A program made the position numbers and the translations under genes. Shown piece by piece: positions 44,955 through 49,921 of a stretch of 64,000 nucleotides of DNA. The notes beneath the pieces are model-generated. The model worked only from the letters and a program-made list of their open reading frames with translations, did no database searches and was not told where the DNA came from. Origin of the DNA: Gammaproteobacteria bacterium (GTDB lineage Bacteria; Pseudomonadota; Gammaproteobacteria; Nitrosococcales; Methylophagaceae); assembly GCA_029882915.1 (NCBI GenBank), contig JAOUJZ010000002.1, forward strand, positions 1-64,000, given 5' to 3'. How positions within the stretch are numbered: the stretch's first letter is position 1; the number at the start of each line of letters is the position of its first letter.

Positions 44955-44971
44955 TGCACCGCAATGGTGCA
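44955..44971. promoter_or_regulatory. NtrC-type binding site upstream of ntrB
   Basis: TGCACC-GCAAT-GGTGCA is a perfect dyad with the geometry of NtrC enhancer sites (17 bp). Extended arms TTGCACC/GGTGCAA reach 44954-44972. It lies between the DUF4124 gene and ntrB. Read leftward it is followed by TTTT, so it could also weakly terminate the DUF4124 transcript. Confidence 0.72.
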
Positions 44972-45613: not shown

Positions 45614-47023
45614 TTAAACGCTGTAATACAAATCATACTCTGCAGGATGTGTTTCCATACGAATACGAGTCACTTCTTCCATCTTCAAGTTGATGTAACC
45701 ATCGATCATATCATTGGTAAAAACACCACCCTCTGTCAGGAAAGCACGGTCTTCATTCAATGCATCCAGAGCTTGATCTAATGAATGACACACTTGTGGA
45801 ATTTGAGCTGCTTCTTCAGCAGGTAAGTCATACAAGTCTTTATCCATCGCATCACCAGGATGAATTTTGTTTTTGATACCATCAAGACCAGCCATCATCA
45901 TTGCACTGAATGCTAAATATGGATTTGCTGTTGGATCAGGGAAACGAACTTCTACACGGCGACCTTTTGGATTTGTTACATAAGGAATACGAATAGAGGC
46001 TGAACGATTTCGTGCTGAGTATGCCAGCATAACCGGTGCCTCGAATCCAGGCACTAAACGTTTGTAGCTGTTGGTACTTGCATTTGTGAACGCATTCAAT
46101 GCTTTAGCATGTTTAATGATACCGCCGATATAAAACAAAGCTGTTTCAGATAAACCGCCGTATTTATTACCAGCAAATAAGTTTTCACCGTCTTTAGATA
46201 AAGACATATGGACGTGCATACCACTACCATTATCACCGACTAAAGGTTTAGGCATAAAGGTCGCTGTTTTACCATAAGCATGAGCAACGTTATGAATAAC
46301 ATATTTCAATTCTTGAACTTCATCGGCTTTTTTCACTAATGTGTTAAATTTAACGCCAATTTCACACTGTCCAGCATTCGCTACTTCGTGGTGATGTACT
46401 TCGGTCACTTGACCCATTTCTTCCACTGTTAAACACATAGCAGAGCGGATATCTTGTAACGAATCGACAGGTGGTACTGGGAAATAACCACCTTTCACTC
46501 TAGGGCGATGGCCCTTATTACCATCAGCATAGACTTTTTCGGTATTCCAAGAAGATTCATCAGAATCCACTTTATAGAACGTACCAGACATGTCACTGCC
46601 CCAACGTACATCGTCAAAGATAAAAAATTCTGGTTCTGGGCCAAAAAATGCTGTGTCCGCAACGCCAGTTGCTTTCAAGTGTGCTTCGGCACGTTTAGCC
46701 ACACTGCGAGGATCACGCTCATAACCTTGCATTGTTGCAGGCTCAACGATATCACAACGAATGATCAAGGTATTGTCATCCATAAATGGATCCATCACTG
46801 CTGTAGTCGGATCTGGCATCAAAATCATGTCAGATTCATTAATACCTTTCCAACCGGCAACAGAAGAACCATCAAACATATTACCTTCAGTAAAGGTATC
46901 CTCATCGATTGAATGAGCAGGGAAAGTAACATGTTGCTCTTTACCGCGTGTATCTGTGAAGCGGAAATCGACAAACGTCACTTCCTCATCTTTGATCATT
47001 TGAAGCACTTTTTCGACTGACAT
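45614..47023 (-). CDS. glnA: Glutamine synthetase type I
   Basis: 469 residues from the ATG at 47023 ([15 protein letters not shown]), with GGAG upstream; the longer open frame is not used. Visible motifs: [12 protein letters not shown] (about 50), [44 protein letters not shown] and the adenylylation site Tyr in NLYDLPAEE (present as [11 protein letters not shown]). It makes glutamine from glutamate and ammonia. Adenylylation at this Tyr is under GlnE/P-II control. The promoter region carries two NtrC sites and a sigma-54 element. Confidence 0.98.
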
Positions 47024-47050
47024 TAAATTTCTCCAATTAAAAATTACTAC

Positions 47051-47066
47051 TGCACTTGTTGGTGCA
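47051..47066. promoter_or_regulatory. NtrC-like palindrome in the glnA leader
   Basis: TGCACTTGTTGGTGCA has the GCAC/GTGC half-sites of an NtrC site but is one base pair too short in the centre (N6 where NtrC sites have N7). It would lie just downstream of the predicted start. It may be a weak NtrC site, a leader stem, or chance. Confidence 0.35.
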
Positions 47067-47085
47067 AAAAACACGCATCCAAATC

Positions 47086-47152: not shown

Positions 47153-47169
47153 TGCACCATTATGGTGCC
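47153..47169. promoter_or_regulatory. NtrC enhancer site 1 upstream of glnA
   Basis: TGCACCATTATGGTGCC, GCAC-N7-GTGC, close to the E. coli glnA site 1. Its centre is 31 bp (three helical turns) from site 2, the spacing suited to cooperative binding on one face. Confidence 0.8.
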
Positions 47170-47183
47170 AGCGGTATCCGTGG

Positions 47184-47200
47184 CGCACCAGATTGGTGCT
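47184..47200. promoter_or_regulatory. NtrC enhancer site 2 upstream of glnA
   Basis: CGCACCAGATTGGTGCT, GCAC-N7-GTGC dyad. Its right edge overlaps the stop codon (47199-47201) of the TusA-like gene that lies upstream of glnA in the same direction. Confidence 0.8.
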
Positions 47201-47426
47201 AAGATCCTACCCGAATTGTAATGGTTATTTCAGTATCATTCTCATAGCTACCAACAAGCTCATGACCATTGATACGCGCCCACGCCGGAATGTCACTTAG
47301 GACTCCAGGGTCGGTACAAATAACGCTTAATATATCACCAACTGCCAATTCCTTAACTTTATTTTGTGTCTTAATTACGGGCATTGGACATAACAACCGT
47401 CTGGCATCCAATTCATACTCACTCAT
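47199..47426 (-). CDS. TusA/SirA-like sulfur-carrier protein
   Basis: 75 residues from ATG 47426, whose first bases overlap the stop of the PP-loop gene (ATGA). The hallmark CPMP with its persulfide-carrying Cys13 follows LDARRLL, and a conserved basic/hydrophobic helix comes next (VIKTQNKVKEL). The fold is the TusA alpha/beta sandwich; the C-terminus ends TITIRVGS. It differs from canonical TusA, which is not usually beside such an enzyme, so I call it a dedicated carrier for the thiolase encoded immediately upstream. That partnership is inferred from the overlap and from published predictions. Confidence 0.85.
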   Translation of the reverse strand: MSEYELDARRLLCPMPVIKTQNKVKELAVGDILSVICTDPGVLSDIPAWARINGHELVGSYENDTEITITIRVGS

Positions 47427-48475
47427 ACATGCCATTCCTCAAGCACTTTTTCTGATGGTAATGGCTTAATCATTATTGTTTGCAGCTCTTTTCCAGATTC
47501 AGAAATTTGTACTTCTACTTGTTCCGCGTCACGCCCCTGTCCATAACGTGCGACAATTCCTGCCGCTAGTTCAAAATCATCTGAACAAATATCGCCATCG
47601 ACTATGGTTAAAGGGCCGTTATGACTCACAACCTGAATGGTGACAAATTGTTTGCGGTATCCTTCTAAAAATTTACTTTCACCCGCATCTCGCGCAATGA
47701 TCAACTTAAATTCTGGCTTTGGACGCAAATGCCGGCCAACTTTAAGCAACATAATGTCGTCCATTTCATATTCACGACTACCGCGCCCTTTCCAGAGATC
47801 CACTAATTTATCTGAATAATTTTTATCTGTAAGGAAACAACAACCACCCGCGGGGGAAGCATAATCAGTAAATCCGAATTGTTCGGCTAATGCCATCTGT
47901 GGCTTACGGTTTCGGCCGCTAAAGTCATACAGTTTATCCCTGTCCACCCAGCCTTCAAGTTCAGGTCTGGTTTCTGGTAAATTCTTAGCACACAATGGTC
48001 TTAGTAAAATATCATCAGCACCGGATTCTTTAGCAACGATTGGCATTGTCTGCTTACGTTGTGACATAGGACGCTGACCAATGACCTCACCAGTGATGAT
48101 AAAATCAAAACCATCTTTATGATTGTCTTTCACCCACTCTACAGCTTTATTCACCATAAAGATTTTACAGTCGAGACAGGGGTTCATATTAGCGCCGTAA
48201 CCATGTTTAGGGTTTAGAAGCACATCTTTATACTCTTCAATCACATCCACAATATGAAGTTTAATTCCTAATTGTTCTGCTGCCCATAAAGCATTATTTC
48301 TTTTTTGTTTGTCTTTATCATGATTGCGGATCGCGTGGGTATGACCTTCAACACAAAACCCTGTGTAGAAATTAATACCTTCAACTTCAATACCTTGTTC
48401 TTGCAAAACTCGAACTGCCAACATTGAGTCCAATCCACCTGATATTAAGGCTACTGCCTTATGTTGCTTTGCCAT
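47423..48475 (-). CDS. PP-loop ATPase with NFACT-R-type C-terminus, putative tRNA thiouridylase
   Basis: 350 residues. The N-terminal half is an adenylating PP-loop domain: SGGLDSMLA (residues 12-20) binds ATP, as in ThiI and MnmA. Conserved cysteines include Cys41 (GFCVEGH), the pair Cys100/Cys103 (NPCLDCK) and Cys212/213 (PAGGCCFL), suited to persulfide or iron-sulfur chemistry. The C-terminal third (about 235-345; LKVGRHLRP, KLIIARDAGESKFLEGY) matches the NFACT-R RNA-binding type. Automatic annotation often calls this family a tRNA (5-methylaminomethyl-2-thiouridylate) methyltransferase, which is probably wrong. A published genomic analysis (Burroughs and Aravind, from memory) predicts tRNA 4-thiouridylation with TusA-like partners; here exactly such a partner overlaps its 3' end. 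tldD lies 3 nt upstream. Confidence 0.85.
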   Translation of the reverse strand: MAKQHKAVALISGGLDSMLAVRVLQEQGIEVEGINFYTGFCVEGHTHAIRNHDKDKQKRNNALWAAEQLGIKLHIVDVIEEYKDVLLNPKHGYGANMNPCLDCKIFMVNKAVEWVKDNHKDGFDFIITGEVIGQRPMSQRKQTMPIVAKESGADDILLRPLCAKNLPETRPELEGWVDRDKLYDFSGRNRKPQMALAEQFGFTDYASPAGGCCFLTDKNYSDKLVDLWKGRGSREYEMDDIMLLKVGRHLRPKPEFKLIIARDAGESKFLEGYRKQFVTIQVVSHNGPLTIVDGDICSDDFELAAGIVARYGQGRDAEQVEVQISESGKELQTIMIKPLPSEKVLEEWHV

Positions 48476-48478
48476 TTT

Positions 48479-49921
48479 TTATGCTGTTCCGCCTACTGTT
48501 AAACCATCAATTTTCAGTGTCGGTTGACCGACTCCTACCGGGACACTTTGTCCTTCTTTACCACAGTTTCCAACGCCAGTATCTAGTTCTAAATCATTCG
48601 CTACCATACTAATTTTGCCCATTACTTCTGGGCCATTACCAATCAGAGTCGCCCCCTTAATCGGCTGGGTAATTTTACCTTTCTCAATGAGATAAACTTC
48701 ACTGGTAGAGAATACAAACTTGCCTGAAGTAATATCCACCGAGCCACCGCCAAAATTTACGGCATAAATGCCCTTATCAACCGACTCAATCACTTCTTCT
48801 GGCTCATGTTTACCAGGCAACATATAGGTATTGGTCATTCTCGGCATCGGTAAATGGGCATACGATTCACGTCGTCCATTCCCCGTACTTCTCGTGTTCA
48901 TCAATCTTGCATTGTGCTTATCTTGCATATAGCTGATTAGTTTGCCATTTTCTATCAGGGTTGTTTTTTCTGTTGCTACCCCTTCATCATCAACCCTTAA
49001 CGAGCCTCGACGATCTTGTAAGGTGCCATCATCGACAACAGTGCACAATGGTGACGCTACCATTTCACCAATACGTCCTGAAAAGGTCGAACTGCCACGA
49101 CGATTAAAATCACCTTCCAGACCGTGGCCAACCGCTTCATGCAACAGCACTCCCGGCCAGCCAGAGCCTAAGACAACTGTCATATTGCCTGCTGGCGCAT
49201 CAACAGCATTAAGATTAACTAATGCTTGTCGCACTGCTTCTTTAGCATAAGATTGTGCCAGATCATTATCTTGAAAATAACGGTAATCTAAGCGTCGCCC
49301 ACCACCAGCACTGCCGCGCTCACGTCGGCCATTAGACTCAACAATGACACTGACATTCATCCGAACCAAGGGACGAACATCTGCTGCTAAAGTGCCGTCA
49401 CTGGCAGCGATAAGTACCGTGTCTAGCCCACCAGCCAGACTGACATTGACTTGGGTAACTCGCGGGTCTTGGGCTCGGGCAGTTGTATCGGCCTGATGTA
49501 ATAGATCCAGTTTTTGTTCCACCGATAATACTGCCAGTGGATCACTGTCTGAATAAAACGATGGCGCTACAACCCGATTCCAGGCTTTCACTTTACCATT
49601 GACACCCTGACGAGAGATTGCTCGCGCTGCTTTTGCTGCATCTTGCAGTGCAGGTAAAATCAGATCATCAGAGTAAGCAAAACCTGTTTTTTCACCACTA
49701 CATGCTCGAACACCAACACCTTGTTCAAGGTGGTAACCACCATCTTTAACAATACCATCTTCTAACAACCAGTTTTCCTGACGCGACTGTTGAAAATAAA
49801 GATCTGCATAATCCACACCTCGTCCCATAGTCAGGGCAAGTGTTTGCTCTAAATCAGCTTCTACTAGGCCAGCAGGAATGAGTAATTGTTGATGAGCTTG
49901 TTCAAATATAGAATCTGTCAT
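48479..49921 (-). CDS. tldD: Metalloprotease TldD
   Basis: 480 residues, as in E. coli (481). The zinc motif [11 protein letters not shown] (about 262) is intact, and the C-terminus has the family [13 protein letters not shown] and [16 protein letters not shown]. TldD works with TldE/PmbA in a heterodimeric protease that trims unfolded peptides and matures microcin or CcdA-type substrates. yhdP precedes it by 57 nt, the usual neighbour. Confidence 0.96.

Follow-up and report, generated by a model that had tools for sequence, protein, structure and literature searches.

What would make s4U in the tRNA of a bacterium in whose genome no ThiI is found? The question is raised by two overlapping genes on the minus strand of the window, the 64,000-nucleotide stretch of gammaproteobacterial DNA analysed here, which encode a 350-aa PP-loop protein and a 75-aa TusA-type sulfur carrier. 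Burroughs and Aravind (RNA Biology 2014) reportedly predicted a new tRNA 4-thiouridylation pathway involving NFACT-R and TusA-like proteins, and the pair has the same architecture, partner and predicted function as the ThiI/MnmA-like protein with NFACT-R in that pathway. In the literature that we searched, we found no experiment on an NFACT-R_2-type PP-loop thiolase and no work linking NFACT with thiouridine or TusA; the Pfam combination PF02568-PF18297 serves as part of an s4U marker in a 2022 paper (PMC9239080). The pair belongs to an already predicted kind for which apparently no bench test has been published, and this analysis newly contributes statistics on ThiI exclusion, a link to RudS, an analysis of a cysteine triad and a structure comparison.

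The enzyme-carrier pair and its surroundings

Based on the ORF list, its translation, Pfam and a structural model, the 350-aa PP-loop/NFACT-R_2 protein, the proposed s4U synthase, is encoded at window positions 47423–48475 of the minus strand, on which all features of the pair given below also lie. As originally predicted, it carries the PP-loop motif SGGLDS, at residues 12–17 (48425–48442), which is at least 90% conserved among aligned relatives. Its N-terminal part matches PF03054 and PF02568. The NFACT-R-type tail that had been expected does fit its profile: residues 246–347 (47432–47737) match PF18297 (NFACT-R_2), a predicted RNA-binding domain, with an E value of 7.6e-35 and 119.6 bits against a cut-off of 26.9. 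The carrier gene (47199–47426) overlaps the enzyme gene by 4 nt (ATGA), and its 75-aa product matches PF01206 (TusA; E 5.4e-23, 81.1 bits against a cut-off of 28.6) and contains the CPxP active-site motif as CPMP (47379–47390), in full agreement with the original prediction. An alternative upstream start, the ATG at 47435, would yield a 78-aa carrier and a 13-nt overlap. The locus thus presents two hallmarks of the NFACT-R_2-type PP-loop thiolases, a family predicted to make s4U: an SGGxDS core followed by PF18297, and a linked TusA-like gene. Moreover, both domains are present in 41 of 41 aligned relatives, and a TusA gene lies next to at least 80 of the 98 homologues of the two-cysteine (GGCC) type; the 80 is a lower bound, since one locus (L006) that was counted as negative does have a TusA match next to its gene (G047:C6:13204). 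The pair is therefore not a chance arrangement; it is real and conserved.

An ORF that we take from its translation to be glnA (45614–47074, minus strand) follows the pair on the same strand, as predicted, and what we read as a tldD-like gene (48479–49921) lies upstream, also on that strand. Two NtrC-type boxes (TGCACC-N5-GGTGCA) stand in tandem between the pair and glnA, at 47153–47169 and 47184–47200, so that glnA probably has a separate promoter; functional coupling of the pair to glnA was rejected because of these boxes. By eye, the presumably sigma-54-like sequence TTGGCTC-AATTT-ATGCAG is located at about 47102–47085 on the minus strand. A further perfect box is found at 44955–44971, upstream of an NtrB-like gene. 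In a by-eye look at the neighbourhoods of the listed distant relatives, no glnA-like neighbour was seen, a second reason for rejecting the coupling.

The expectation that the enzyme is usually annotated as a methyltransferase was not confirmed. Pfam calls its N-terminal domain "tRNA methyl transferase HUP domain", and two annotated relatives bear other names, "MnmA/TRMU family protein" and "7-cyano-7-deazaguanine synthase". These two, at 35–37% identity, are on records filed as plasmids, NZ_CP077186.1 (Fusobacterium animalis) and NZ_AP027060.1 (Haliovirga abyssi). In the scans run, no model dedicated to the family turned up in NCBIfam release 20.0 (June 2026). Since there is no such model and relatives carry wrong names, a test in one strain would correct annotation across many phyla.

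Fold and active-site cysteines

We compared an AlphaFold2 model of the enzyme, built from the 41-sequence alignment (mean pLDDT 93.6, pTM 0.89), with solved structures. Residues 3–218 match ThiI (4kr6, Z 15.2, rmsd 2.5 Å over 167 residues; 2c5s, Z 14.1), with YcfA of Erwinia (9kq6, Z 15.2) as the joint top match. The same core matches MnmA (2hma, Z 13.1; 2deu, Z 12.6) and, at Z about 13, LarE, including the [4Fe-4S] LarE 8cp4. Residues 248–350 resemble the NFACT-R region of RqcH (8s1u_H, Z 13.5, rmsd 2.1 Å over 101 residues), as well as FBPS (5h3w) and CCDC25. Independently, a sequence profile of the family finds RqcH (E 2.8e-7), ThiI and MnmA among solved structures, and no solved structure of the family itself. 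As modelled, the 350-aa protein consists of a core of the ThiI/MnmA type followed by an NFACT-R domain.

The enzyme shares with ThiI the PP-loop core, the inferred s4U product and co-occurrence with RudS, but it scores 31.9 bits against the cut-off of 264.5 of the ThiI equivalog TIGR00342; Pfam finds no THUMP (at E up to 1) or rhodanese match in it, and it has instead NFACT-R_2, a separate TusA carrier and a CxxC plus C motif. With MnmA, especially the C-type, it shares the core fold and three active-site positions (D/C99, C102 and C199), whereas it has a different C-terminal domain, falls below the MnmA cut-offs (NF001138, 44.9 of 284 bits; TIGR00420, 42.4 of 237 bits) and coexists with a canonical MnmA encoded elsewhere in the genome. 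From RqcH and NEMF, which share its NFACT-R fold, it differs in having a thiolase core in place of NFACT-N, for which Pfam gives no match. Likewise, the carrier resembles TusA, YedF and TsuB in PF01206 and the CPxP motif, yet it is a dedicated gene neighbour of the thiolase and lies below the TusA equivalog cut-off (NF001423, 47.4 of 78 bits) and those of YedF and TsuB.

The 41 aligned relatives range from Gammaproteobacteria to MAGs labelled Omnitrophota, Nitrospirota, Syntrophales, Clostridia and Bathyarchaeota, and their only invariant cysteines are Cys100 and Cys103, in the motif NPCLDC (residues 98–103; 48167–48184), and Cys213, in GGCC (residues 210–213; 47837–47848). When aligned with the MnmA of the same genome, these fall on D99, C102 and C199, active-site residues needed for thiolation and proposed, with dispute, as [4Fe-4S] ligands; the DxxC of E. 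coli is replaced by CxxC in C-type MnmAs (PMC11784392). The invariant CxxC with one distant cysteine is also common to the [4Fe-4S]-dependent PP-loop thiolases NcsA, TtuA, TtcA and C-type MnmA, and three such cysteines bind the cluster of NcsA (PMC10067955). Because the triad coincides with the proposed ligands of MnmA, the protein is likely an Fe-S-assisted thiolase, and a bound [4Fe-4S] cluster seems reasonably probable from the alignment.

Distribution of the family relative to ThiI and RudS

The original prediction called for a search for canonical ThiI and TusBCDE. In the source genome, whose assembly is about 90% complete and for which the nearest relative found that bears a name is a Methylophaga MAG, at 89% identity, ThiI gave no match over the cut-off and no DsrC/TusE was found. 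MnmA is present (C33:19273–20328), as is TtcA (C52:124162–124929; 67% identical to the E. coli TtcA query). Since ThiI was not found, this genome shows no candidate s4U route other than the pair, which stands beside MnmA for s2U34 and TtcA for s2C32. The idea of a second thiolation route is thus supported as to thiolation and refined as to "second" where s4U is concerned. A role of the pair as a replacement of MnmA or TtcA was rejected, both enzymes being present. With no DsrC/TusE and a single DsrE-family protein found, an E. coli-type TusBCDE relay is unlikely. At about 90% completeness, however, the missing ThiI and TusE in this genome alone are not proof.

Two further TusA-like genes were observed in the source genome. 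On contig C58 (L063 1919–2736), a second TusA gene overlaps the gene of the single DsrE-family protein, with a BepA-like protease gene adjoining; this TusA and DsrE may together relay sulfur in place of TusBCDE, as a two-gene system. On contig C29 (L064 167–1886), a third, divergent TusA-like protein, with GCPMHY in place of CPxP, is encoded with a CysH-like gene on one side and a gene for a TauE-like permease on the other.

We compared the occurrence of the family with that of ThiI. In an evenly drawn phylum sample of 239 genomes (completeness at least 90), ThiI occurs in 79 and PF18297 in 34, with both in 0 (hypergeometric 3e-7, from counts that, like all presence/absence counts here, are not phylogenetically independent). 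Among 59 relatives, PF18297 was detected in 45 and ThiI over the cut-off in 2, again with none shared. Of 41 carriers taken from a separate scan of contigs, 3 have ThiI and 38 lack it. The three ThiI-positive carriers (L129, L135 and L137) are all Clostridia, in which a single-cysteine relative adjoins a D-alanine ligase-like gene; they count against a strict exclusion, although this relative may make something else there.

RudS (TudS-DUF1722) reportedly strips s4U from tRNA, and its authors described ThiI-less RudS groups, for which they suggested ThiI homologues of other architecture, or no s4U (PMC11417400). DUF1722 was found in 64 of the 239 genomes: 48 of 79 with ThiI, 16 of 34 with PF18297, and 0 of 126 with neither. 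Among ThiI-less genomes, RudS thus separates those with PF18297 from those with neither (Fisher 5e-13), while its rate shows no difference between ThiI and PF18297 genomes (p 0.22). Counted by taxonomic family, RudS occurs in 7 of 15 PF18297 families versus 0 of at least 11 families containing neither-genomes (p about 0.01, a conservative value since further negative families are possible). The full TudS-DUF1722 architecture is present in 10 of 10 checked proteins from PF18297 genomes. Furthermore, 12 additional carriers that lack ThiI, among them Geomonas, a Nitrospira MAG and Scalindua, have DUF1722, with the hit in G326 weak at E 1e-9. In the 239-genome sample, RudS therefore occurs only where one or the other of the two mutually exclusive thiolases is encoded, as expected if both make s4U, and the family could explain the ThiI-less groups (A and B) of the RudS authors. 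Several of the 126 neither-genomes sit in families where others keep ThiI and RudS (e.g., G126 in f29), which suggests joint loss of the two in those families.

Collectively, the ThiI exclusion, the RudS restriction and the ThiI/MnmA-like core with an NFACT-R fold support the reading as tRNA 4-thiouridylation that the original prediction put forward. From these comparisons, s4U is very probably the product of the pair. With good confidence, leaving the cluster aside, we propose that the 350-aa enzyme makes it with the help of TusA and replaces ThiI. U8 of tRNA is the most likely target.

Proposed sulfur route and alternatives

The route that we infer, from product and position 8 to the cluster and the transfer from TusA to the enzyme, would involve ATP-dependent adenylation of uridine O4 by the PP-loop core. 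A cysteine desulfurase would load the TusA-like product of the overlapping gene with sulfur, as a persulfide at its CPxP cysteine, and this protein would pass the sulfur to the enzyme; in the clade of the window, this carrier is quite probably the direct donor. The most likely role of Cys100, Cys103 and Cys213 is to bind a [4Fe-4S] cluster, with the sulfur for the adenylated base carried on its fourth iron. Without a cluster, the three cysteines would serve as a persulfide and resolving set, as in classical MnmA.

The partner of the enzyme varies among distant relatives, and divergent ones have no adjacent TusA, which counts against the proposed route. One relative has a TusA-ThiF upstream (L125). 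Another has an overlapping cysteine desulfurase upstream and Thi4 downstream (L120, 5995–7830), and in a third (L128, 2051–3904) the gene lies between Thi4 on the upstream side and NifU plus a cysteine desulfurase on the downstream side. Rrf2, Mrp/ApbC and FeS_assembly_P genes lie upstream in L111, a thiE-thiG-radical SAM (thiH-like) run directly upstream in L127 (3473–6996), and Rrf2 with a CysH-like gene downstream in L123. These neighbours fit sulfur transfer and Fe-S chemistry.

Three other readings have to be weighed against the Fe-S-assisted synthesis of s4U. The closest keeps the product and dispenses with the cluster: TusA would load a persulfide on Cys213 (or Cys212), and Cys103 would resolve it, in a mechanism like that of classical MnmA and ThiI. 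According to one group, whose finding is reviewed in PMC11784392, E. coli MnmA works only when it holds no cluster, and the extra Cys212 is confined to the clade with adjacent TusA, given the at least 80 of 98 two-cysteine loci above versus 0 of 28 of single-cysteine types. The latter contrast, however, with a naive Fisher p of 3e-16, reflects just 2–3 independent changes on the tree, for which reason a service of Cys212 to TusA is only a lead. Against this reading also stand the invariant CxxC and distant cysteine, which resemble the sets of NcsA and C-type MnmA, and the Fe-S maturation genes adjoining some relatives. We regard a cluster-free enzyme as possible but doubtful.

A different product is less probable still. 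As an MnmA- or TtcA-like paralogue, the enzyme might thiolate another RNA position or base (s2U34, s2C32, s2U54 or rRNA) in place of s4U, in line with its weak matches to MnmA models as well as to ThiI and with a CxxC plus C motif resembling that of C-type MnmA. This is unlikely, given that MnmA and TtcA are both present in the source genome, MnmA in 43 of 43 good relatives, and that s4U is the product suggested both by the ThiI exclusion and by the absence of RudS from genomes with neither ThiI nor the family. The thiamine genes beside L127, L120 and L128 keep a minor alternative alive, namely that the sulfur goes into thiamine thiazole or another cofactor rather than RNA; E. coli ThiI serves both pathways (PMC5372745), and LarE, another match of the core, inserts sulfur into a cofactor. 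Nevertheless, such genes are absent from the window locus and occur only beside a few divergent single-cysteine relatives, RNA binding is predicted from the NFACT-R domain, and cofactor synthesis leaves the RudS association unexplained, so that this reading is very improbable.

The Fe-S-assisted synthesis of s4U is thus retained. In its fullest form, which we favour with moderate confidence, the family would be a widespread Fe-S-dependent s4U8 synthase with non-ThiI RNA recognition and, in one clade, a one-step TusA donor, which replaces ThiI in numerous phyla and explains the ThiI-less RudS organisms. If so, s4U would be commoner in bacteria than ThiI counts suggest, groups A and B of the RudS paper would gain a specific answer, and a structurally different way of recognising U8 would become available for study. 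As a further observation, in an Aquificaceae MAG (L112, 1108–1601), the TusA gene is followed by an overlapping gene for an 81-aa protein that has no Pfam match and is a possible third component.
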